DNA of 32,882 nt. Source: Thermoleophilia bacterium. Its GTDB lineage: Bacteria > Actinomycetota > Thermoleophilia > UBA2241. The position numbers and the translations under genes were made by a program. Shown here one piece after another: positions 1,575 through 22,954 of this stretch. The stretch is taken from contig JAFGAW010000048.1 in assembly GCA_016933475.1 (NCBI GenBank), positions 1 to 32,882 of the forward strand, written 5' to 3'. Numbering within the stretch: position 1 is the first letter of the stretch; each line of letters opens with the position of its first letter. Under the pieces are notes generated by a model. The model was given only the letters and a program-made list of their open reading frames with translations. It did no database searches and had not been told where the DNA came from.

Positions 1575-2879
1575 GTGGGCGCCGACCGCCCTCGGCAGAT
1601 GCTCGAGCGGACGTTCCGCTCGCTGCGCATCCGCAACTACCGCCTCTACTTCATGGCCCAGACGGTGTCGATGAGCGGCACCTGGCTGCAGTCGGTCGCG
1701 CTCTCGTGGCTCGTCCTCGAGCTCACGGACAGCGCCGTGGCGCTGGGCTCGATCGTGGCGGTGCTCTTCGGACCGATCCTCGTGCTTGGCCCGTGGGCCG
1801 GGGTGCTCGCCGACCGAATCGACAAGCGCCGGCTGCTGATCGCGACGCAGACGTCCGCGGGCGTGTTCGCGCTGGCCCTCGGGGTCGTCACCGCCGCCGG
1901 CGTCGTCGAGCTCTGGATGGTCGGCGGCCTGGCGCTGCTCACCGGTGTCGCGCTCGCCCTCGACATGCCGGCCCGGCAGAGCTTCGTCATCGAGATGGTC
2001 GGGCCCGACGACGTCGCCAACGCGGTCGGCCTCAACTCGGTGATCGTCAACGCGTCGCGGATCGTCGGGCCCGCCGTCGCCGGCGTCCTCCTCGTCTACG
2101 TGGGCATCGCCGCCTGCTTCTTCGTCAACGCGGCGTCGTTCATCGTCGTGATCGGCGGGCTGCTGCTGATGCGGGTCGAAGAGCTGCGCCGGGCGCCGAC
2201 CGTGTCGCGGCGCCCCGGGCAGCTGCGCGCCGGGCTGCGACACGCCTGGGGGGCGATCAACCTGCGCGTGCCGCTCCTCATGATGGCCGTCGTCAGCACG
2301 CTGGGCTACAACTTCTCCGTACTGCTCCCGCTGCTGGCCGTACGTGCGTACGGACGCGGCGCCGGGAGCTACAGCTCGCTCTCGGTGGCGATGGGCGTGG
2401 GCGCCCTCGCGGGCGCCCTCCTCGCCGCCTGGCGGGCGCGCCCGTCCCGGCGCCTGCTCGTGGTCTCGACGCTCGCCTTCGGGCTGTTCAGCGTCGCGGT
2501 GGCGGCTGCACCCGGCTTCGTCTCCGCGCTCCTGCTCCTGCTGCCCATGGGAGCCGCCGCGGTCCTCTTCGTCTCGACCACCAACGCGATGCTGCAGCTG
2601 AACGCGGCGCCGGCGATGCGCGGCCGCGTGATGGCGCTGTGGGCGATGCTCTTCCTCGGCAGCACGCCGATCGGCGCGCCGATCGCGGGGCTGCTGGCGA
2701 GCGCCGTCGGCGCCCGCTGGGCAGTCGCTCTCGGCGGCCTCGCGACGCTGGCCGCCGGCGCCGGCGGGGCGTGGGCCCTGCACCGGCGCCACCTCGCGGA
2801 GGGCTCCTGCGAGGTGCCCTGGTGTCTCCCCGAGACCGAAGAGGCCGGCGCCGTAGCCGAGAGCGCACCGGTCAGGTGA
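1575..2879 (+). CDS. MFS transporter, MFS_3 (EntS-like exporter) type
   Basis: A 434-residue major facilitator with about 12 predicted membrane segments. The N-terminus (FRSLRIRNYRLYFMAQTVSMSG) and the loop 2-3 motif GVLADRIDKRRLL are typical of the MFS_3 group that includes the enterobactin exporter EntS and many drug exporters. The DMPARQSFV segment after TM4 is a further family hallmark. The substrate cannot be told. It starts only 3 bp after yggT, at GTG 1575, without a visible ribosome site, so translation is probably coupled. An ATG at 1599 (MLERTFRSLR) is an alternative start. The protein is a distant relative of the MFS_3 protein at 31340-32713. Confidence 0.88.
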   Translation: MGADRPRQMLERTFRSLRIRNYRLYFMAQTVSMSGTWLQSVALSWLVLELTDSAVALGSIVAVLFGPILVLGPWAGVLADRIDKRRLLIATQTSAGVFALALGVVTAAGVVELWMVGGLALLTGVALALDMPARQSFVIEMVGPDDVANAVGLNSVIVNASRIVGPAVAGVLLVYVGIAACFFVNAASFIVVIGGLLLMRVEELRRAPTVSRRPGQLRAGLRHAWGAINLRVPLLMMAVVSTLGYNFSVLLPLLAVRAYGRGAGSYSSLSVAMGVGALAGALLAAWRARPSRRLLVVSTLAFGLFSVAVAAAPGFVSALLLLLPMGAAAVLFVSTTNAMLQLNAAPAMRGRVMALWAMLFLGSTPIGAPIAGLLASAVGARWAVALGGLATLAAGAGGAWALHRRHLAEGSCEVPWCLPETEEAGAVAESAPVR

Positions 2880-2893
2880 GCGTGCCGCCGCCG

Positions 2894-2905
2894 GTGTCGT
2901 AACAT
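2894..2905 (+). promoter_or_regulatory. Possible extended -10 element upstream of the DUF4388 gene
   Basis: TAACAT at 2900-2905 is preceded by TG at 2895-2896 in an otherwise GC-rich spacer. There is no convincing -35 box. It would place a start site about 70 nt before the TTG start at 2981. Confidence 0.25.
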
Positions 2906-2980
2906 ACGGGGGCAGGAAGGACCGGAGGGCGCCGCAGCCGTGCCGCCACGCCCGGCCGGGCACGAGATGAAAGGCCGCCG

Positions 2981-4288
2981 TTGCTGCTGCAGGGCAACCT
3001 CAAGGAGTTCAGCCTCCCGAACATCTTCCAGCTCGTGAAGATGAGCGCCAAGAGCGGCGCCCTCACGATCCGTCGCGACGAGGCCTGGGGCAAGATCTAC
3101 TTCACCAACGGCCTGATCAACTACGCGTTCTCGATCCCGCAGCAGCTGCCGCTCGGCGAGCGCCTGGTGCAGGCGGGTCTGCTCAAGCCGGCGCAGCTCA
3201 GGCAGGCCCTCTCGGCGCAGAAGAAGGCGGGCAAGGAGGGGCCGCGCATCGGCACGATCCTGCTCGAGAAGGAGTTCATCGCCCGGGCCACGCTCGAGGA
3301 GGCGATACGCGAGCAGATCCAGGACGCCGCCTTCGACTTCTTCAGCTGGGCCGACGGCGAGTTCTCGTTCAGCGCCGAGGAGCGCCCCGACGACCAGGAC
3401 GTCCTGGTCGAGATGAACGTCGAGAACGTCATCATGGAGGGCTGCCGGCGCATCGACGAGTGGGAGCTCATCTTCGAGCACCTGGGCTCGCTCGAGCGTA
3501 TCCCGCACCTCGCCTACAACGAGGGCGTCGAGGACCGCGGCGAGGTGCGGCTCACCCCCGACGAGTGGCGCGTCGTCGTGCACATCGACGGGCGCGCCGA
3601 CATCAACACCATCCTGCGCGACTGCGGTCTCGACCGGTTCCACGGCGCGAAGGTCATCTACAGCCTGTTCTCCAGCGGGCTCGTCACCGTCTCCGAGCCC
3701 GTCATCGACGGCATCGCCAAGGGTGTCAGCGTCTGCGTGCGCGGGCCGATCGACTTCTACAACGAGGTCTTCCTCACGACGCTGACCGACTCCAACGTCA
3801 CCAAGCAACTGCGCGTCGAGCTCATCGACGAGAGAGAGGTCGAGGTGCCGATCGTGGCCGGCACGCTGACCACGGTCGAGGGCGAGTCCGAGGACGATGA
3901 AGTGCTCGTCGCGACCGCCGAGGTGCTCGTCTACACGTCGGTCGGCCTGGTGTCTGATGCCGCCTGGGCACGGGTGGCCCGCGACGCCTCGGCTTTCGTC
4001 GTGCTCGTCAACGCCAACGACGCCGACAGCCTGCGGGCCGGCCGCCGCGACGTCGACTTCGTGAAGAAGTCGGACGGCGCGCCCTTCGTCCTCGCCACGT
4101 ACACCTCGATGGCCGAGGACGCCGTCGAGCCCGACGCCGTACGCAAGGCGCTCGGCGTCGACCACGGCGTCCCCGTCCACGTCTGCAGCCTGCGCGACCG
4201 CACGTCGGTCATCGGCGTCGTGCGCGCGGCGGTCGACCTGGCCCGGGGTGCGGAGCGCCCCACCCACACGATGAAAGGACGGGGGTAG
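2981..4288 (+). CDS. DUF4388 (PATAN-type) protein with degenerate MglA/COG2229-like GTPase tail
   Basis: A 435-residue cytoplasmic protein. Residues 1-110 form a DUF4388 domain, opening with LQGNLKEFSLPNIFQLVKMS and containing GALTIRRDEAWGKIYF; these domains occur in bacterial regulatory and motility-related proteins. Residues about 45-140 also carry a helical stretch like the N-terminal domain of type II secretion ATPases (GERLVQAGLL, GTILLEKEFI). From about residue 245 to the end the pattern follows small GTPases of the COG2229/MglA group: a segment at the P-loop position (VCVRGPIDFYNEVFL), then FVVLVNA, PFVLATY and VPVHVCSLRDRTSV. However, the P-loop lacks GK[ST] and the NKxD motif is missing, so it is probably a pseudo-GTPase. 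The TTG start at 2981 follows GAAAGG (2969-2974). The same GATGAAAGG sequence recurs before hemB, which starts directly after this stop. Confidence 0.8.
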   Translation: MLLQGNLKEFSLPNIFQLVKMSAKSGALTIRRDEAWGKIYFTNGLINYAFSIPQQLPLGERLVQAGLLKPAQLRQALSAQKKAGKEGPRIGTILLEKEFIARATLEEAIREQIQDAAFDFFSWADGEFSFSAEERPDDQDVLVEMNVENVIMEGCRRIDEWELIFEHLGSLERIPHLAYNEGVEDRGEVRLTPDEWRVVVHIDGRADINTILRDCGLDRFHGAKVIYSLFSSGLVTVSEPVIDGIAKGVSVCVRGPIDFYNEVFLTTLTDSNVTKQLRVELIDEREVEVPIVAGTLTTVEGESEDDEVLVATAEVLVYTSVGLVSDAAWARVARDASAFVVLVNANDADSLRAGRRDVDFVKKSDGAPFVLATYTSMAEDAVEPDAVRKALGVDHGVPVHVCSLRDRTSVIGVVRAAVDLARGAERPTHTMKGRG

Positions 4289-5260
4289 ATGTACTACCCG
4301 AGCTACCGGATGCGCCGCCTGCGCCGCACCCCCACGGTGCGCCGCATGCTGCGCGAGACGACGCTCTCCCCGGACGACCTGATCTACCCACTGTTCGTGA
4401 TCCACGGCGAGAACGTCAACAACCCGATCGTCTCGATGCCCGGTTGCGCCCAGCTCTCGATCGGCAACCTGCTGGCTGAGGTGCGCGAGGTCGCGCAGCT
4501 CGGCATCCCGGCGGTCCTGCTCTTCGGTATCCCCGCGCACAAGGACGCGGCCGCGACGGCCGCGTACGACCCCGAGGGGATCGTCCAGCTCGCCGTCAAG
4601 GCGATCAAGGACGAGGCCCCAGACCTGCTCGTCATCACCGACGTCTGCCTCTGCGAGTACATGGACCACGGGCACTGCGGCGTGGTCCAGGACGGCGAGG
4701 TGCTGAACGACGTCACGCTCGAGTTGCTCTCGAAGATGGCGATCACCCACGCCGAGGCGGGCGCCGACGTCGTCGCCCCCTCGGACATGATGGACGGGCG
4801 CGTCGCCGCGATCCGCAACGCGCTCGACGACGAGGGGCTGGTCGACGCCGCCATCATGGCCTACTCGGCCAAGTTCGCCTCGGCCTTCTACGGCCCGTTC
4901 CGTGACGCCGCCGAGTCGGCGCCGGCCTTCGGCGACCGCAAGACGTACCAGATGGACCCACCCAACGGCGAGGAGGCGGTGCGCGAGGTGCTGCTCGACA
5001 TCGAAGAGGGCGCCGACATCGTCATGGTCAAGCCGGCGTTGCCCTACCTCGACGTGATCCGCGCGGTGAAGCAGGAGACGCGCTTCCCGCTCGCCGCCTA
5101 CAGCGTGAGCGGCGAGTACGCGATGCTCAAGGCGGCGGCCGAGAAGGGCTGGCTCGACGAGGAGCGCTGCGTGCTCGAGGCGATGACCGGCATCAAGCGC
5201 GCCGGCGCCGACCTCATCATCACCTACTGGGCCAAGGACCTGGTCCGCTGGCTCGGATGA
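4289..5260 (+). CDS. hemB: Delta-aminolevulinic acid dehydratase (porphobilinogen synthase)
   Basis: HemB condenses two 5-aminolevulinate molecules to porphobilinogen in the cytoplasm, an early step shared by heme, siroheme and cobamides. The 323-residue length is normal. The zinc-binding cysteines Cys120, Cys122 and Cys130 (DVCLCEYMDHGHCG) are present, and the two catalytic lysines are Lys195 (AYSAKFASAFYGPF) and Lys248 (MVKPALPYLD), so it is a zinc-type enzyme. The start ATG at 4289 immediately follows the stop of the DUF4388 gene and is preceded by AAAGGACGGGGG. The stop overlaps the next gene, ahbD, by ATGA, so the two are translationally coupled. HemL, which makes its substrate, lies 2.4 kb downstream on the same strand. 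Confidence 0.97.
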   Translation: MYYPSYRMRRLRRTPTVRRMLRETTLSPDDLIYPLFVIHGENVNNPIVSMPGCAQLSIGNLLAEVREVAQLGIPAVLLFGIPAHKDAAATAAYDPEGIVQLAVKAIKDEAPDLLVITDVCLCEYMDHGHCGVVQDGEVLNDVTLELLSKMAITHAEAGADVVAPSDMMDGRVAAIRNALDDEGLVDAAIMAYSAKFASAFYGPFRDAAESAPAFGDRKTYQMDPPNGEEAVREVLLDIEEGADIVMVKPALPYLDVIRAVKQETRFPLAAYSVSGEYAMLKAAAEKGWLDEERCVLEAMTGIKRAGADLIITYWAKDLVRWLG

Positions 5261-6396
5261 GGCGGGAGACGGGCGTGGGTCACCCGGGCCCTGCGGGTGA
5301 GGCGACGACGCGCGGCAGCGGCGAGCCGCCGCCGCCGCGCGTCATCGCCTGGGAGGTCACGCGCAGCTGCAACCTGGCCTGCAGACACTGCCGGGCCTCG
5401 GCCGTACGCGGGCCCTACGAGGGCGAGCTGAGCACAGCCGAGGCCTTCGACCTGGTCGACCAGATCGCCTCGTTCGCGAACCCGATCCTCATTCTGACCG
5501 GCGGCGAGCCGTTGATGCGCGCCGACGTCTTCGACATCGCGGCACGCGGCGTCGAGCGCGGCCTGCGCGTCGTCATGTCACCCAACGGCACGTTGGTCAC
5601 GCCTGAGGTCGCGCGGCGCATGAAGGAGGTCGGCATCGGGCGCATCAGCGTCTCGATAGACTTCCCGGGCGCCGCCGAGCACGACGCGTTCCGCGGCGTG
5701 CCCGGCGCCTTCGACGGCGCCGTGCGCGGCATCCGCAACGCCCTCGCCGCCGGGGTCGAGGTACAGGTCAACTCGACGATCACGAAGATGAACGTGCACC
5801 ATCTGCCGGCCCTTCTCGCCCTGGCCGAGAAGCTCGGCGCGGTCAGCTTCCACCCCTTCATGCTGGTGCCGACAGGGCGTGGCAAGGATCTCGAGGAGCA
5901 GGAGTTGCCCCCGGAGGAGTACGAGCGCGCCCTCGAGTGGATGTTCGACGCCCAGCAGGAGTCGGCACTCTTCCTCAAGCCCACCGACGTGCCGCACTAC
6001 TGGCGCGTCATGCGGCAGCGGGCGAAGGCCAAGGGCAAGAAGATCGAGGTGCACCCGCACAGCCACGGCGGTCTGCACACGCTCACTCGCGGCTGTCTCG
6101 CGGGGATCGGCTTCTGCTTCATCTCGCACCGTGGCGAGGTACAGCCCTGCGGCTACTTCGACAAGGTGGCGGGGGATGTGCGTAAGACCCCGTTCCCCGA
6201 GATCTGGCGCTCGTCGCCGCTCTTCGTCGAGTTGCGTGACCTCGACGGTCTCAAGGGCAAGTGCGGGGTCTGCGAGTTCAAGAAGGTCTGCGGCGGCTGC
6301 CGTGCCCGCGCCTACGAGGCCACCGGCGACTACATGGCCGAGGAGCCCTATTGCGCCTACGTGCCGCGGGCCTGGTGCCCGCCGGCCGCGCCCTGA
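5257..6396 (+). CDS. ahbD: Radical SAM heme b synthase, AhbD/NirJ family
   Basis: A 379-residue radical SAM enzyme. The cluster motif is Cys38-x3-Cys42-x2-Cys45 (EVTRSCNLACRHCRAS), with the GGEP motif at LILTGGEPL. A C-terminal SPASM-like Cys-rich region holds about six cysteines (Cys336, 339, 345, 348, 366, 374; KCGVCEFKKVCGGCRAR) for auxiliary iron-sulfur binding. The N-terminal context RVIAWEVTRSCNLAC is characteristic of AhbD, which decarboxylates the two propionates of Fe-coproporphyrin III to give heme b in the siroheme-dependent pathway; AhbC and NirJ are the close alternatives. It overlaps hemB by 4 bp (ATGA), which supports a heme role. A GTG at 5275 with a GGGAG site (5264-5268) is an alternative start. 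This route is used by sulfate reducers and archaea and works without oxygen. Confidence 0.85.
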   Translation: MRRETGVGHPGPAGEATTRGSGEPPPPRVIAWEVTRSCNLACRHCRASAVRGPYEGELSTAEAFDLVDQIASFANPILILTGGEPLMRADVFDIAARGVERGLRVVMSPNGTLVTPEVARRMKEVGIGRISVSIDFPGAAEHDAFRGVPGAFDGAVRGIRNALAAGVEVQVNSTITKMNVHHLPALLALAEKLGAVSFHPFMLVPTGRGKDLEEQELPPEEYERALEWMFDAQQESALFLKPTDVPHYWRVMRQRAKAKGKKIEVHPHSHGGLHTLTRGCLAGIGFCFISHRGEVQPCGYFDKVAGDVRKTPFPEIWRSSPLFVELRDLDGLKGKCGVCEFKKVCGGCRARAYEATGDYMAEEPYCAYVPRAWCPPAAP

Positions 6397-6513: not shown

Positions 6514-7071
6514 TCACGTCTCGTCGATGAAGTGCCGCTGCAGGCAGACGAGCTCGTCGGTGAGCCCGGCGCGCCGGTAGACGCGCTGCGCGCGCCGGTT
6601 GTCGCCACTCGTGATGACGCCGATCTCGGCGCAGCCCTCGGCGACCAGGCGGCGCATCGCCTCGCGCACGAGCCCTTCGCCGATGCCGGTGCCCTGCGCC
6701 TCCCGGGTCACGCCCACGTCCTCGATCTCGCCGGCCGGCGCCGCGTGATACAGGTCGAGGGTGACCGAGTACGACAGGAGGCCGACAGGCCCGTCCGCGC
6801 GCACGGCGAGCAGGATGTGGGCCCCGGGTTGCTCGAGGTAGCTTCGTACGAAGGCTTCGTCGATCGTAGTGCCGTGGGCGAAGTCGCGACCCATCTCGAC
6901 GACGAGACGAACGACGGCCGCCTCGTCGCCGGGGCCGGCCTCGCGGAGCGTCACGCCTGACGGGAGGCCTCTCCTGCGGAGGCTCGCCTCCGGCGTCGGG
7001 TGAGGCGTCTCGCCGGAGACCGCCGACGTACGGCGCGGTCTCCCCGGGCGCCTCTCGCGCGAGGGGCTCAC
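6514..7071 (-). CDS. GNAT family N-acetyltransferase (second of a tandem pair)
   Basis: A 185-residue GNAT protein. The acetyltransferase fold spans about residues 40-180: an N-terminal TLREAGPGDEAAVVRLV strand-helix and the acetyl-CoA loop GVTREAQGTGIGEGLV (the Q/RxxGxG/A type site). It ends with YRRAGLTDELVCLQRHF. The first ~38 residues are Arg/Pro-rich and unlike the family. The GTG start at 7071 overlaps the TGA of the upstream gene (GTGA) and has a GGAGAGG ribosome site, which supports it. It is clearly a diverged copy of the neighbour at 7068-7502. The substrate is unknown. It converges with ahbD across a 117-bp gap in which I see no clear terminator. Confidence 0.85.
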   Translation of the reverse strand: MSPSRERRPGRPRRTSAVSGETPHPTPEASLRRRGLPSGVTLREAGPGDEAAVVRLVVEMGRDFAHGTTIDEAFVRSYLEQPGAHILLAVRADGPVGLLSYSVTLDLYHAAPAGEIEDVGVTREAQGTGIGEGLVREAMRRLVAEGCAEIGVITSGDNRRAQRVYRRAGLTDELVCLQRHFIDET

Positions 7072-7502
7072 AGGTGCCTCTCCAGCAGCAGCGAGGCGTC
7101 GGTGAAGCCGAGCCGTCGGTAGAGGCGCTGGGCACCCTCGTTCTCGAGCCCGGTGGAGATGCCGATCTCAGCTACGCCGAGCCCTTCGAGGTGCGCCATC
7201 GTACGGCGGAGCAGGGCGGTCCCGATTCCTCGCCCGCGGTGCCCCGCGGTCACGATCGCCTCGTCGACAGTGGCGCAATGCGCGGCGTGGTAGAGCCCGG
7301 GGAAGAGGAACCAGGTGACGACCCCGACGGCCGCGTCGCCGTCGTCGGCGACGAAGGCGCCGGCGTCGTCGCGGGCGAGGAAGGCCTCGACCCAGGCGGG
7401 CTCGACCGGCGAGCTCTCTCCGAAGGTCGCGGCCATCTCGCGGATCAGGCCGGCGATGGCGACGGCGTCGCCGGCGCCGGCCGCACGGATCGTCGCGTTC
7501 AC
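7068..7502 (-). CDS. GNAT family N-acetyltransferase (first of a tandem pair)
   Basis: A 144-residue single-domain GNAT protein, typical length. It begins MNATIRAAGAGDAVAIAGLI; the acetyl-CoA binding loop is VTAGHRGRGIGTALLRR, and the end is YRRLGFTDASLLLERHL. The GTG start at 7502 is preceded on the minus strand by GGGAGAAGG. It shares the LYHAA motif, the VAEIGI/CAEIGV strand and the RLYRRLGF region with the downstream copy, so the pair arose by tandem duplication. Its upstream region is shared, divergently, with hemL and contains the Rex-like operator at 7557-7574, so either side could respond to Rex. The acetylated substrate cannot be predicted. Confidence 0.87.
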   Translation of the reverse strand: MNATIRAAGAGDAVAIAGLIREMAATFGESSPVEPAWVEAFLARDDAGAFVADDGDAAVGVVTWFLFPGLYHAAHCATVDEAIVTAGHRGRGIGTALLRRTMAHLEGLGVAEIGISTGLENEGAQRLYRRLGFTDASLLLERHL

Positions 7503-7556: not shown

Positions 7557-7574
7557 TTGTGCACGCTCTCACAT
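7557..7574. promoter_or_regulatory. Rex operator-like palindrome upstream of hemL-rex
   Basis: TTGTGCACGCTCTCACAT has the TTGTG-N8-CACAA geometry of the Rex-binding consensus TTGTGAAnnnnTTCACAA and matches 11 of its 14 defined positions (mismatches at positions 6, 12 and 18). It lies 59 bp before the hemL start. An AT-rich TAGTATATG (from 7590), a candidate -10 region, follows 15 bp downstream, so bound Rex would sit over the -35 region and block transcription. rex is the second gene of this unit, consistent with autoregulation. Confidence 0.6.
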
Positions 7575-7632
7575 GACCCGCTGACCGCGTAGTATATGAG
7601 GAGTCCGTGAGTCCGTCCTGCTGGAGGAACGC

Positions 7633-8913
7633 GTGAACTTCGAGACCTCTGCCCGCCTCTTCGAGGAGGCGCTCAGGTACATCCCGGGCGGCGTCAACTC
7701 GCCGGTGCGGGCGATGAAGGGCGTCGGCATGCCGCACCCGCTCTTCATCGCCAGGGCGCGCGGCGCCCACGTGTGGGACGCCGACGGCAACGAGTACGTC
7801 GACTTCGTCTCCTCCTGGGGGCCGATGATCCTCGGCTGGGGGCACCCCCAGGTCGTGCAACGCCTGCGCGCCGTGCTCGACGACGGGACCAGCTTCGGCG
7901 CCCCCACGGCGCTCGAGATCGAGCTCGCCCGGCTGATCTGCGAAGCCGTGCCGTCGATCGAGCTCGTCCGCATGGTCAACTCGGGCACCGAGGCCACGAT
8001 GAGCGCCGTGCGCGTCGCCCGCGGCGCGACCGGGCGCGAGAAGATCGTCAAGTTCGTCGGCTGCTACCACGGGCACTCGGACGCCTTCCTCGCCGCCGCC
8101 GGCAGCGGCGTGCTCACGCTCTCGCTGCCCGACAGCCCCGGCGTGACCCGGGGGACGACGGCCGACACCCTGCTCCTCGAGTACAACGATGTCGCCGGCC
8201 TCGAGGCGCTCTTCGAGGAGCGCGGCGAGGAGATCGCCTGCCTGATCGTCGAGCCGGTCGCCGGCAACATGGGCGTCGTGCCGCCGGCGCCCGGGTTCCT
8301 CGAGACGGCACGCCGCCTCTGCACCGAGTACGACGCCGTGCTCGTCTTCGACGAGGTCATCACCGGCTTCAGGGTCGCCTGGGGCGGCGCGCAGGAGCGC
8401 TTCGGGGTCATCCCCGACCTCACGACCCTGGGCAAGATCATCGGCGGCGGCCTGCCCGTCGGGGCCTTCGGCGGCCGCCGCGAACTCATGGAGACCGTCG
8501 CCCCGCTGGGCTCGACCTACCAGGCCGGCACGCTCGCCGGCAACCCGCTGGCGATGGTGGCCGGGGCCGCCACGCTCGGGGTGCTGTCGGAGCCCGGCGT
8601 GTACGAGGGCCTCGAGGCGCTGGCCGCGCGCGTCGAGAGCGGGCTTCGCGCGGCCGTCGGTGAGACCGCGGTCACGATCAACCGCGTCGGAGGGATGCTG
8701 ACGATGTTCTTCTGCGAGGGACCGGTCGCGAGCTGGGCCGACGCGAAGCGCGCCGACACGACCGCCTACGCGCGCTACCACCGGCACATGCTCGAGCACG
8801 GGGTCTACCTGGCACCGTCACAGTACGAGGCCACGATGGTCTCGCTCGCTCTGACCGATGACGACCTGCGCCGCGCGCAGGAGGCCACCGCCGCGTTCTT
8901 CGCGGCGGCCTGA
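7633..8913 (+). CDS. hemL: Glutamate-1-semialdehyde 2,1-aminomutase
   Basis: HemL isomerises glutamate-1-semialdehyde to 5-aminolevulinate, the last step of the C5 route and the source of HemB substrate. The 426-residue length is standard for this PLP fold-type I enzyme. The PLP lysine is Lys268 (TLGKIIGGGLPVGAFGG). Other hallmarks are YIPGGVNSPVRAMKGVG, MVNSGTEATMSAVRVARG, KFVGCYHGHSD, VFDEVITGFR and STYQAGTLAGNPLAM. The GTG start at 7633 follows a GGAGG site (7623-7627). The rex gene starts 14 bp after the stop. Presence of HemL implies glutamyl-tRNA reductase (HemA) elsewhere, as it is not in this window. Confidence 0.97.
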   Translation: MNFETSARLFEEALRYIPGGVNSPVRAMKGVGMPHPLFIARARGAHVWDADGNEYVDFVSSWGPMILGWGHPQVVQRLRAVLDDGTSFGAPTALEIELARLICEAVPSIELVRMVNSGTEATMSAVRVARGATGREKIVKFVGCYHGHSDAFLAAAGSGVLTLSLPDSPGVTRGTTADTLLLEYNDVAGLEALFEERGEEIACLIVEPVAGNMGVVPPAPGFLETARRLCTEYDAVLVFDEVITGFRVAWGGAQERFGVIPDLTTLGKIIGGGLPVGAFGGRRELMETVAPLGSTYQAGTLAGNPLAMVAGAATLGVLSEPGVYEGLEALAARVESGLRAAVGETAVTINRVGGMLTMFFCEGPVASWADAKRADTTAYARYHRHMLEHGVYLAPSQYEATMVSLALTDDDLRRAQEATAAFFAAA

Positions 8914-8927
8914 GGAGGGGGATAGGC

Positions 8928-9569
8928 GTGCGCAACGTCGACAGGAAGGACGTCCCGGCGGTCACCGTGCCGCGCCTCGCGCTGTACCTGCGCAAGCTTC
9001 GCGAGCTGCGTGCCCGTGGCGTCGATCGCGTCTCGTCCAAGGACCTCGCCGAGGCCATCGACCTCAACGCGGCGCAGATTCGCAAGGACTTCTCGTACTT
9101 CGGCGAGTTCGGGACGCGCGGCGTCGGCTACGAGGTCGACAGCCTCATCGACGTCATCACGCACTCGCTGGGCCTGCACCGCACGTGGAACGTCGCCATC
9201 ATCGGCGCCGGGCTGCTCGGCACGGCGCTGGCCCGCTACCGCGGTTTCGGCGAGCAGGGCTTCCATCTGGTGGCGATGTTCGACAGCTCGGCTACGGTCA
9301 TCGGCGCGAGCTACGGCGAGGGCCGCGTGCGCAGTGTCGCCGAGCTCGAGGAGTTCTGCGCCGAGGAGCGCGTCGACATCGCCGTCGTGACCGTCCCGGC
9401 GAGCGAGGCGCAGGCGACGATCGAGCGGCTCGTCGCCGCCGGGGTGCGGGCGATCCTCAACTTCGCCCCTGTACGCGTGCACACGCCCGACGGCGTGCTC
9501 GTGCGCCAGGTCGACCTGTCGAGCGAGCTCATGGCGCTCTCCTTCCACCTCGACCGCGAGTCCGACTGA
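8928..9569 (+). CDS. rex: Redox-sensing transcriptional repressor Rex
   Basis: Rex is a homodimeric repressor that senses the NADH/NAD+ ratio: it binds DNA at low NADH and leaves when NADH builds up. The 213-residue length is normal. Residues about 1-80 are the winged-helix DNA-binding domain, containing the family hallmark NAAQIRKDFSYFGEFGTRGVGY. From about residue 87 there is a Rossmann domain with NVAIIGAGLLGTALARY and the C-terminal swapped helix (SSELMALSFHL). The GTG start at 8928 has a strong GAGGAGGGG site. It is co-transcribed with hemL; in Streptomyces rex is likewise joined to heme genes (rex-hemACD). Probable targets are its own unit and respiratory genes. Confidence 0.96.
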   Translation: MRNVDRKDVPAVTVPRLALYLRKLRELRARGVDRVSSKDLAEAIDLNAAQIRKDFSYFGEFGTRGVGYEVDSLIDVITHSLGLHRTWNVAIIGAGLLGTALARYRGFGEQGFHLVAMFDSSATVIGASYGEGRVRSVAELEEFCAEERVDIAVVTVPASEAQATIERLVAAGVRAILNFAPVRVHTPDGVLVRQVDLSSELMALSFHLDRESD

Positions 9570-19417: not shown

Positions 19418-20656
19418 ATGCGGGCGCGGGAGCCGCAGGGGGTAAGCACCTTGAGCGCATGCACGACCTCCGCCAGCGGGGTCGCATCGGCGTTGCCGAT
19501 GTCACCGCCGGCTCTGCCGTGCCCACGCCTGCGCTCGCCCCGTCTTCTCTCCCTCGCCGTCGCCCTTGCTCTCGCCGTGATCGTCCTCACGCTGGTCCCG
19601 GCCGCGGCGGAGGCCCGTGAGGCCTGGGTCCACGGCACGGTCGTCGGCTGTCAGTGTCACTTCATCGCGATGGACGACGTCGCCTGTACGACCTCCTGTC
19701 ACACGGGCTTCAAATCCGTACCCGGCCAGAAGTGCTGGAGCTGCCACGCCCCCGGCAGCGACACGAGTACGCTCTCGTCGAGCGACGAGGCGTGCGCCCA
19801 AGAGTGCCACCTCTACGAGCGCACGATCGACTCTTACGGCTACCTGACGTCATATCAGCATGCCGACGTGCCGCACTTCGGCGCGGAGCCCGAGTACGGC
19901 GGCTGCCTCGAGTGTCATGCCACCGGCGGTCCCACGGGCACATCCTTCGAGAGCGCCCATCACAGCGGCCTGACGCTCGAGGCGCCCGCCTGCGCCCGCT
20001 GTCACGACGGCGTTCTCGCCTCGAAGCAGGGCGACCACGGCCCGCACGAGTGCCTCGAGTGTCACACGGCGATGGACCGGCCGGCGGTGCCGGCGAGCTG
20101 CGTGCCGTGCCACCTCGATACGCCGCTGCCCGCGACCGGCGAGAGTTGCGTCGCGTGCCACGCCGAGCACATCCACACCGGGGACGTCGGCACCTGCCGT
20201 GCCTGCCATCGCCCCTACAGGCGGCACGCCGACGCAGCCGTCGACTGCAGGCGGTGCCACCGCGGCATGGTCCTCTACCACCACGGCTACGAGGTGAGTG
20301 CCGCCAGAGCCTGCCGTGAATGCCACCCCCGGGGCCACGACGGCACCCGGGTCGCCGGGTATCGCTGCAAGTCCTGCCACACCGGCAAGACGCCGCTCGC
20401 CGACCCTTCCGCGCAGCACTCCCGTGACGTCACCAAGCTCTATCGCTGCAGGACCTGCCATCTGAAGACGGTGCACGCCCGGGCGACTCACCCGCGCTAC
20501 ACCTGTCGCACCTGCCACAGGAGCGGGATGCACGCGCTGCAGAAGCTGCCGACCAACGCCACCTGCGTGCGCTGTCACGCGAGTGCCGCCTTCCACACGG
20601 GACCGTTCAAGTGCGTGGTGTGCCACCGTCGCGCCGTTCACGACCGGACCCCATGA
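19418..20656 (+). CDS. Secreted multiheme cytochrome c with 14 CXXCH motifs
   Basis: A 412-residue exported protein. A long N-terminal region leads to a hydrophobic signal segment (about residues 43-66: LLSLAVALALAVIVLTLV, then AAAEA). The exported part contains 14 CXXCH heme c motifs (CWSCH, CLECH, CARCH, CLECH, CVPCH, CVACH, CRACH, CRRCH, CRECH, CKSCH, CRTCH, CRTCH, CVRCH, CVVCH), plus two CX3CH motifs (CTTSCH, CAQECH) and one CQCH that could be unusual heme sites or lost ones. There is no membrane anchor after cleavage, so it is probably a periplasmic or wall-located electron carrier. Start uncertain: ATG 19418 has a GAGGGG only 2 bp away, whereas TTG 19451 has AGGGGG at ideal spacing and ATG 19499 gives a more normal signal peptide. 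The membrane cytochrome gene follows within 20 bp. Confidence 0.87.
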   Translation: MRAREPQGVSTLSACTTSASGVASALPMSPPALPCPRLRSPRLLSLAVALALAVIVLTLVPAAAEAREAWVHGTVVGCQCHFIAMDDVACTTSCHTGFKSVPGQKCWSCHAPGSDTSTLSSSDEACAQECHLYERTIDSYGYLTSYQHADVPHFGAEPEYGGCLECHATGGPTGTSFESAHHSGLTLEAPACARCHDGVLASKQGDHGPHECLECHTAMDRPAVPASCVPCHLDTPLPATGESCVACHAEHIHTGDVGTCRACHRPYRRHADAAVDCRRCHRGMVLYHHGYEVSAARACRECHPRGHDGTRVAGYRCKSCHTGKTPLADPSAQHSRDVTKLYRCRTCHLKTVHARATHPRYTCRTCHRSGMHALQKLPTNATCVRCHASAAFHTGPFKCVVCHRRAVHDRTP

Positions 20657-20675
20657 GCAGGGGCATGGTGCGGGC

Positions 20676-21740
20676 GTGAACTTCCGTCTCACCGTCCGCG
20701 GCCTGACCATCGCCATCGTGGTCATCAGTGTGGCCACGATCGGCATCGGCGCGGCTCTCGCCGGCACCTCGACGAGCGCCTTCTGCGGGCTGTGCAAGAG
20801 TCACGAGCCCTACATCGACGGAGTACGGGCGTCGGGGCACGTCTCGGTCAACTGCGAGCAGTGCCACTCCAAACCGGGCCCCTTCCTCTTCCTCACCGCC
20901 AAGATGGAGGCGCTGGAACAGCCGGTCAAGCAGGTGAGCGGCTACGAGGAGCCGATGCTCGGCACCGTGATGAACCAGTCCTGTCGCCGCTGCCACACCA
21001 ACGACGTCCTCTTCGACATGATCTCGACCAGTGGCATCAACGTGCAGCACCGCCACCTCATCGAGGCCGGCTTCCTCTGCAACCGCTGCCACTCTGCCGT
21101 CGGCCACGGCGACGCGGTGCCCGAGGGCTCGCGGCACGAGCCCACGATGTTCCAGTGCCTGATCTGCCACAACAACCGCTACACCTCGAGCGAGGGCCAG
21201 GTGGCGCTCGCCGACTGCGAGTTGTGCCACACCAAGAAGGACTACGCGGAGACTCCTTCCACGCACGAGACGGCGGCGTGGGAGAAGCAGCACGGCTCGC
21301 TCGGCATCCTCTCGACCTGCGGCGCCTGTCACCACGACAAGAGGATGGCCACGCTCGAGCTGGCCGAAACGGGGGCGCCGGACTGCCGCAGTTGCCACGA
21401 CGGCCTGCTGATGCCGCATCCCAGGTCGTGGCTGCGCCTGCACGGGGAGCGCGAGGCGGCACTCGGCGAGAAGGCGTGCACGACCTGCCATACCTCCGAG
21501 GACTACTGCGAGACGTGTCACCAGTTGGCCATGCCGCACCCCACGGGGTTTGTCGCCTCGCACGCCAAGGCGGCCGAGCGGATCGGCACCGGCTGCATGA
21601 ACTGCCACCGCGCCGACAACTGTCAGGCCTGTCACGGCCAGCACCGTGACGGTGCGCCTCAGGGACACCAGCTCTTCGAGGGTGTCGAGTACGTGCCGCC
21701 CGCCGAGCCCCGCGCCGAGCCGGGCACGACCCTCCGCTGA
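20676..21740 (+). CDS. NapC/NrfH-like membrane-anchored multiheme cytochrome c (11 CXXCH, 1 CXXCK)
   Basis: A 354-residue protein with one N-terminal membrane anchor (about residues 8-30: LTIAIVVISVATIGIGAALAG) and an external multiheme domain. The first motif is CGLCK (FCGLCKSHEPYIDGV), followed by NCEQCHSKPG in the NapC/NrfH arrangement, then nine more CXXCH plus the final CQACH: 11 CXXCH in all, longer than tetraheme NapC/NrfH. NapC/NrfH/CymA-type modules take electrons from menaquinol, so this is a candidate quinol dehydrogenase feeding the neighbouring cytochromes. C-terminal motif pairs are followed by MPHP, as in the next gene. GTG 20676 gives a normal anchor sequence, though its ribosome site is weak; the frame is open upstream inside the previous gene. 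The stop overlaps the next ATG (TGATG). Confidence 0.87.
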   Translation: MNFRLTVRGLTIAIVVISVATIGIGAALAGTSTSAFCGLCKSHEPYIDGVRASGHVSVNCEQCHSKPGPFLFLTAKMEALEQPVKQVSGYEEPMLGTVMNQSCRRCHTNDVLFDMISTSGINVQHRHLIEAGFLCNRCHSAVGHGDAVPEGSRHEPTMFQCLICHNNRYTSSEGQVALADCELCHTKKDYAETPSTHETAAWEKQHGSLGILSTCGACHHDKRMATLELAETGAPDCRSCHDGLLMPHPRSWLRLHGEREAALGEKACTTCHTSEDYCETCHQLAMPHPTGFVASHAKAAERIGTGCMNCHRADNCQACHGQHRDGAPQGHQLFEGVEYVPPAEPRAEPGTTLR

Positions 21741-22954
21741 TGCCGAGGGACCCCGACAAGCAGCCGAAGAGCCGCGTCCTCCTCGAGGTGCGCATCCCAC
21801 GCCTGTGGCTGGGGGGCCTGGCGGCGGCCCTCGTCCTGGTGCTCGTCGGGGGGGTCGCCGGCTTCGCCTCGGTCAACCGCATCGAGACGTGCGAGGCGTG
21901 TCACGTGATCGCGCCCGAGGTGGCGACCTACAAGGAGACCACGCATTTCGCCTCCGGGGTCGGCTGCCAGGAGTGCCACACCAAGCCCGGCGTCTTCTCG
22001 TACTTCGTGCGCAACCTGCAGGGTCTCAGCAACGCCCTCGCCCACGCGACCGACACGTACGAGCGGCCGATCACCGCGTACGTCGGCGCCGACACGTGCA
22101 CCAAGTGTCACTCCAACGAGGAGATCGGTCAGGACCTCGTCGTCGGCAACATCCGCGTCAACCACAAGGGCCTGCGCGAGGCCGGCTACCAGTGCCTCAC
22201 CTGTCACGCCAACATCTCGCACCCGGGCACGCAGATGGAGGTGGCACGGCTCTCGCAGAACGTCATGTCCGTGTGCTCGCGCTGTCACGACGGCGTCACC
22301 CTGCCCGAGGACTGCGACGTCTGCCACCTCGGGGCCGTCCCCGGAGACCACGACCCGGTGACCATGACGGTCCAGATGAACGCGAAGGACTGCCAGGGCT
22401 GCCACGAGGACGAGACCACCTGCCGCCGCTGCCACAACGGTCTCGATATGCCGCACCCGTCGGCGTGGGAGAAGAAGGAGCACGGCAAGGTCGTCCTCGA
22501 CCGCAACGAGTCCGTCTGCGCTCGCTGCCACACCAAGGACGACCCCGACTACTGCATCGACTGCCACGGCCTCGATATGCCGCACCCGAACAGCTTCCGC
22601 AAGGCGCACGGCGACGAGGCCGAGAAGGACCCCGACCTTTGCGCGAAGTGCCACGGCAAGAACGGATGTACGACCTGTCACGGCATCGCCATGCCACACC
22701 CGAGCGGGTTCCTCGCCGGGCACACGAGCGCCGCGAACACTTCGCCGGGAGTCTGCTCGCGTTGTCACAGCGCCGCCTACTGCAACGACTGTCACGGCGT
22801 CGCCCTCCCGCACAGCTCGTCGTTCATCGCCGGCCACGCGACGGCCGTGTACTCAGGCGGCGGGCTCTGCGTGAAGTGCCACGGCAACAGCGGAAGCGGC
22901 ATCGCGGGCTGCTACGGCGGCGAGTGCCACGTGGCCGGCGACGACTTCGACTGA
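21740..22954 (+). CDS. Membrane-anchored multiheme cytochrome c with 15 CXXCH motifs, NapC/NrfH-like start
   Basis: A 404-residue protein, N-terminal anchor at about residues 21-45 (LGGLAAALVLVLVGGVAGFA) and an external domain. It starts with a NapC/NrfH-like pair (CEACHVIAPEVATYKETTHF, then CQECHTKPG). There are 15 CXXCH motifs in total and a terminal CX4CH (CYGGECH). From about residue 210 the chain is built of tandem motif pairs of about 35-40 residues, each ending in a CXXCHG-like motif with DMPHP/AMPHP, which suggests internal duplication. Paralogous to the gene at 20676. Menaquinol oxidation or onward transfer along a heme wire to an external acceptor is likely; the terminal acceptor is unknown. 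The start overlaps the previous stop by one base (TGATG). Confidence 0.9.
   Translation: MPRDPDKQPKSRVLLEVRIPRLWLGGLAAALVLVLVGGVAGFASVNRIETCEACHVIAPEVATYKETTHFASGVGCQECHTKPGVFSYFVRNLQGLSNALAHATDTYERPITAYVGADTCTKCHSNEEIGQDLVVGNIRVNHKGLREAGYQCLTCHANISHPGTQMEVARLSQNVMSVCSRCHDGVTLPEDCDVCHLGAVPGDHDPVTMTVQMNAKDCQGCHEDETTCRRCHNGLDMPHPSAWEKKEHGKVVLDRNESVCARCHTKDDPDYCIDCHGLDMPHPNSFRKAHGDEAEKDPDLCAKCHGKNGCTTCHGIAMPHPSGFLAGHTSAANTSPGVCSRCHSAAYCNDCHGVALPHSSSFIAGHATAVYSGGGLCVKCHGNSGSGIAGCYGGECHVAGDDFD

Follow-up and report, generated by a model that had tools for sequence, protein, structure and literature searches.

The hemL-rex locus

The window analyzed here, a stretch of 32,882 nucleotides from the draft genome of a Thermoleophilia bacterium (G000), carries hemL and rex on the same strand with a 14-base gap between them (Table 1). 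They are preceded by an intergenic gap that is shared with a divergent pair of genes for GNAT acetyltransferases. An earlier note, made from the sequence alone, had named hemL, rex and the divergent GNAT pair facing the gap, and family models confirm all of these identities. It had also described a Rex operator-like site in the gap and a -10-like box 15 bp 3' of it; the box is present at that distance, and its hexamer is retained in the relatives. Further upstream lie hemB and ahbD, the latter encoding a radical-SAM enzyme that scores above the cut-off for the AhbD heme b synthase. Because hemB and a radical-SAM gene of AhbD grade precede the gap, the cell probably makes heme via the siroheme route. 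The hemA gene is located elsewhere in the genome, between a cytochrome-assembly-like gene and hemC.

Table 1. Coordinates of genes and promoter features, in window positions unless a contig is given.
Feature	Position	Strand	Evidence or remark
hemB, porphobilinogen synthase	4289..5260	+	NF006762 above cut-off
ahbD, heme b synthase of the siroheme-dependent pathway	5257..6396	+	TIGR04545 512.3 bits, cut-off 500
Second divergent GNAT acetyltransferase	6514..7071	-	PF00583
Divergent GNAT acetyltransferase	7068..7502	-	PF00583; start ~55 bp from the operator, common gap
Rex operator (ROP), predicted	7557..7574	+	TTGTGCACGCTCTCACAT, inverted repeat with GTG-N8-CAC core
-10-like box of the hemL promoter	7590..7597	+	TAGTATAT; -10-like hexamer in 14/14 f1 hemL-rex promoters
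hemL, glutamate-1-semialdehyde 2,1-aminomutase	7633..8913	+	GTG start; TIGR00713 571.9 bits, cut-off 527.3
rex (rex1), NAD(H)-responsive repressor	8928..9569	+	NF003992 and NF003995 above cut-off
Second Rex-family gene	L034 298-1449 (G000:C72)	-	~180 extra C-terminal residues

Directly 5' of hemB, positions 2981-4288 encode a DUF4388 protein with a c-di-GMP-binding-like motif (NF053729 above cut-off), and a similar gene occupies the equivalent place in the relative G005. Downstream in the window, at 19418-22954, are three consecutive genes whose products resemble multiheme c-type cytochromes and contain 14, 11 and 15 CxxCH motifs. With 11-15 CxxCH motifs each, these three proteins are a large heme sink.

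A Rex operator-like site in the hemL promoter

The site reads TTGTG-N8-CACAT, the two pentamers together matching the consensus at 9 of 10 positions, and its right half (CTCACAT) is imperfect. It had been described as a TTGTG-N8-CACAA layout with 11 of 14 defined positions; the spacing and the count stand when read off the sequence, and the site ends in T where that layout has A. Rex operators (ROPs) are inverted repeats resembling TTGTGAANNNNTTCACAA, and bound sites deviate from this consensus by up to three mismatches. At 11/14, and with a matrix score inside the range of bound sites, the site falls within this class. It is the sole ROP match with three or fewer mismatches in the window, where shuffled sequences lead one to expect 0.05.

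The closest comparison is the rex-hemAC1DB operator of Streptomyces avermitilis, TTGTGCACGCGTTCACAA, which has been DNase-footprinted with protection from -39 to -17 and lies 77 bp from the ATG (PMC5355995). The two sites are identical at 15 of 18 positions, including the first ten bases, both overlap the -35 region, and the first base of ours is 76 bp from the hemL start. Its departures from the consensus are no worse than those in sites bound in S. avermitilis: the footprinted nuoA1 site also ends in CACAT, the rex-hem site has C at position 6, and the ectABCD site is still bound with three mismatches (PMC5355995). Since ROPs with three mismatches are bound with lower affinity (PMC5355995), a moderate operator is a fair expectation here. 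A symmetrised matrix, built from Rex-bound S. avermitilis sites with the rex-hem site left out, gives it a score of 17.9, the highest in the window (next 13.4; P ~3e-7 per position). Sites bound in vitro score 13-26 overall, those with three mismatches 13-16.5 and the stronger ones 21-26.

The palindrome also resembles the target of another kind of dimeric regulator. ROP and CRP consensus sequences overlap, and by inspection the TGTGC-N6-TCACA within the site fits the CRP/FNR pattern (TGTGA-N6-TCACA) at 9 of 10 positions. However, the six conserved copies described below all have C or T in place of the A in the left CRP half-site, a near-identical sequence before Streptomyces rex has been footprinted with Rex (PMC5355995), and there is no CRP-type regulator among the neighbouring genes examined. 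We therefore regard binding by a CRP/FNR-family protein or the like as highly unlikely.

The site ends 15 bp 5' of the conserved -10 box, a promoter-blocking placement. Given a transcript start predicted near 7602, the operator would cover about -45 to -28.

Conservation and loss of the site among relatives

We compared the draft genome with 14 relatives from its family. Wherever contigs reach, they share the order (hemB-)ahbD-(divergent GNAT)-gap-hemL-rex, with the exception of G005, which lacks hemL before rex; adjacent hemL and rex are found in genomes of three families (f1, f4 and f6). When the 14 f1 hemL-rex promoters were aligned on their -10 box, an operator-like site was present at the same register in six, at another position in two and absent from six. 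The palindrome stands 33-34 bp before the box in G000, G009, G010, G011, G012 and G013, which represent two genera. The alignment of these six has 75 columns, of which only 10 are invariant, among them all six positions of the GTG/CAC core, and the upstream flanks of G000 match those of the other five at 24-27%, which is chance level. The conservation of GTG/CAC at a fixed register is a clear phylogenetic footprint. The matrix scores of the relatives' sites are only 12-16.

In a tree of hemL and Rex the six genomes that keep the site fall in one clade, within which G001/G002, G007 and G014 are without it. The pair G001/G002 belongs to the same genus as G000 and is its sister in this tree; in G007 and G014 a different sequence occupies the operator position. 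Inspection of the aligned operator position also found the site absent from G004 and G006, where no alternative operator-like sequence was found in the hemL-rex promoter. G003 and G008 carry a different operator-like sequence, ATGTACYTKCAATCACAA, just after the -10 box, with a score of 13-14. The note had proposed that the idea be abandoned if close relatives sharing the gene order had lost the site. This objection applies in part: such loss is seen in G001, G002, G007 and G014, and the site is kept at the same register in the six genomes that include G000. That same-genus relatives and further kin lack it despite an unchanged gene order indicates that the operator is labile.

These losses also bear on whether the site is a chance match or a functionless vestige. 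About four matches of 11/14 quality are expected by chance in the 2.49-Mb genome, and several relatives that share the gene order do without the site. Against this, the expectation for such a match inside the 130-bp gap is ~2e-4, and lower by the matrix, and the core does not vary across six genomes whose upstream flanks have diverged. We consider a site of no function very improbable.

Outside f1, the f4 hemL-rex promoters keep TTTTCACAAG, or a form that differs from it by one base, immediately 5' of the box (GTGGTAGATT or ATGGTAGATT; GGTAGATT). With the Streptomyces matrix this element reaches only 5.5-9.9, so we call it half-site-like rather than a proven ROP. In f6, most genomes have hemL after hemB, with a promoter-like gap that is small or missing. 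In G005 (L124 3160-3345), hemL is missing between the old promoter and rex, and rex stays downstream of that promoter. A ROP-like match before this rex (L124:3207, TTGTGAAGACAGACACAT) was rejected as a remnant of hemL start codons, GTGAAGACAGACACATC.

Rex proteins and the proposed control of heme supply

Members of the Rex family combine a winged-helix N-terminus with an NAD-binding Rossmann domain, and Rex1 scores above the cut-offs of PF06971, PF02629, NF003992 and NF003995. Its closest solved relative by sequence is Thermotoga maritima Rex (5ZZ5/7WB3, E 4e-49), in which R48, K49, R60 and G61 contact bases, and the GxGxxG motif and Y100 contact NAD (PMC8836258). The base contacts are kept in Rex1 as R52, K53, R64 and G65 and the NAD contacts as GAGLLG and Y104; Y68 is also among the contact residues kept. 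Unlike in T. maritima Rex, two DNA-contact positions are changed (K43 to N47 and E34 to K38). The wing, GTRGVGY, is canonical.

The genome encodes a second Rex-family protein, whose C-terminal extension has a weak match to DRTGG (E 0.02-0.09, below cut-off). Its gene is followed by one for a HATPase_c_2 protein, an arrangement conserved in most family members. The paralog's promoter holds a near-perfect ROP, TTGTGAATCGATTCACAG, the best found in G000 and stronger than the one before hemL; the paralog is possibly a Rex fusion that regulates itself. Several relatives show the same combination of paralog and ROP, and it is conceivable that the site before hemL is real and is bound mainly by this protein, or shared by both. 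However, rex1 adjoins the site and encodes a canonical wing, whereas the wing of the paralog (SGSPNKGY) does not keep the R60/G61 minor-groove contacts. We judge it unlikely that the paralog is the main binder or a partner at the hemL promoter.

The earlier note had called for a genome scan with a Rex motif. With the loose pattern TTGTG-N8-CACAA at two or fewer mismatches there is no genome-wide enrichment (111 matches against 121 in the control), and the counts that follow therefore come from the stricter pattern alone. With this pattern the draft genome is enriched at three or fewer mismatches (13 ROPs against 3 in the control), and at two or fewer the 15 genomes together contain 35, about 12-fold more than the 3 of the reversed control.

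The likeness to a footprinted operator, the matrix score, the phylogenetic footprint, the hemL-rex linkage, the canonical Rex and the enrichment of ROPs agree in supporting a Rex operator of the hemL-rex unit. The site probably overlaps this promoter in its -35/upstream part, where Rex would repress its own unit until relieved by NADH. By analogy with known Rex behaviour, at a low NADH/NAD+ ratio Rex would occupy the operator over the -35 region and block RNA polymerase. When NADH accumulates, as in a shortage of electron acceptors, NADH-bound Rex would be released and hemL and rex would be transcribed together, and hemL expression would provide more 5-aminolevulinate for heme by the AhbD route. 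Because rex belongs to the transcribed unit, the circuit would be a negative feedback loop. Control of heme precursor supply by NADH/NAD+ status through an autoregulated Rex, as originally suggested, is thus supported in silico as far as the operator goes; that Rex1 itself closes the loop is what we infer, given the second paralog. A search of the hemA loci found nothing of operator grade, the best scores being 10-12.5 and within coding sequence, so Rex control would reach the pathway through hemL only.

Rex is linked to heme genes in Streptomyces, as the note had stated: rex is co-located with early heme genes in the Rex-repressed rex-hemAC1DB of S. avermitilis and rex-hemACD of S. coelicolor (PMC5355995). 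In contrast to those operons, hemL here precedes rex, hemA and hemC are elsewhere, the neighbours are hemB and ahbD of the siroheme route, and the operator is not stably kept by close relatives. To judge from its gene content and operator, the locus is very probably a new case of the known Rex-autoregulated rex-heme operon, with hemL beside an AhbD heme route. We found no paper linking hemL and Rex in the open-access literature, a weak sign of novelty. On this reading, heme synthesis would be under Rex control not only in Streptomyces but also in an uncultured lineage of Thermoleophilia type with genes for multiheme cytochromes, and the control point would have moved from hemA to hemL. The unexpected part is the ready loss of the operator among close relatives: its turnover is fast, whereas hemL and rex remain paired.

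At least seven genomes also have a ROP before a second Rex-family gene, and others occur near cooS, a formate-tetrahydrofolate ligase gene, a sulfhydrogenase-beta-like gene and an HdrA-like gene. Their enrichment and their position near genes of anaerobic energy metabolism suggest that Rex operators are in use in the clade. In the draft genome, a ROP-like CTGTACAATCCTTCACAA (L102 1501-1518, G000:C89) lies ~120 bp before a formate-tetrahydrofolate ligase gene (1638-3017). Together with the cooS-adjacent sites in G007 (L093) and G011 (L112), it suggests Rex control of Wood-Ljungdahl and CO genes. A broader and rather doubtful proposal is that the two Rex proteins share one operator set and jointly make heme supply (through hemL and the AhbD route) respond to the NADH state, along with genes of the Wood-Ljungdahl pathway, CO dehydrogenase genes and hydrogenase-like genes. 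Finally, several relatives carry TTGTGTAACGCTGCACAA or near copies of it next to a cupin-like gene (L113 29-46, L114 96-113, L116 1520-1537 and L090 1501-1518), in what looks like a conserved operator.
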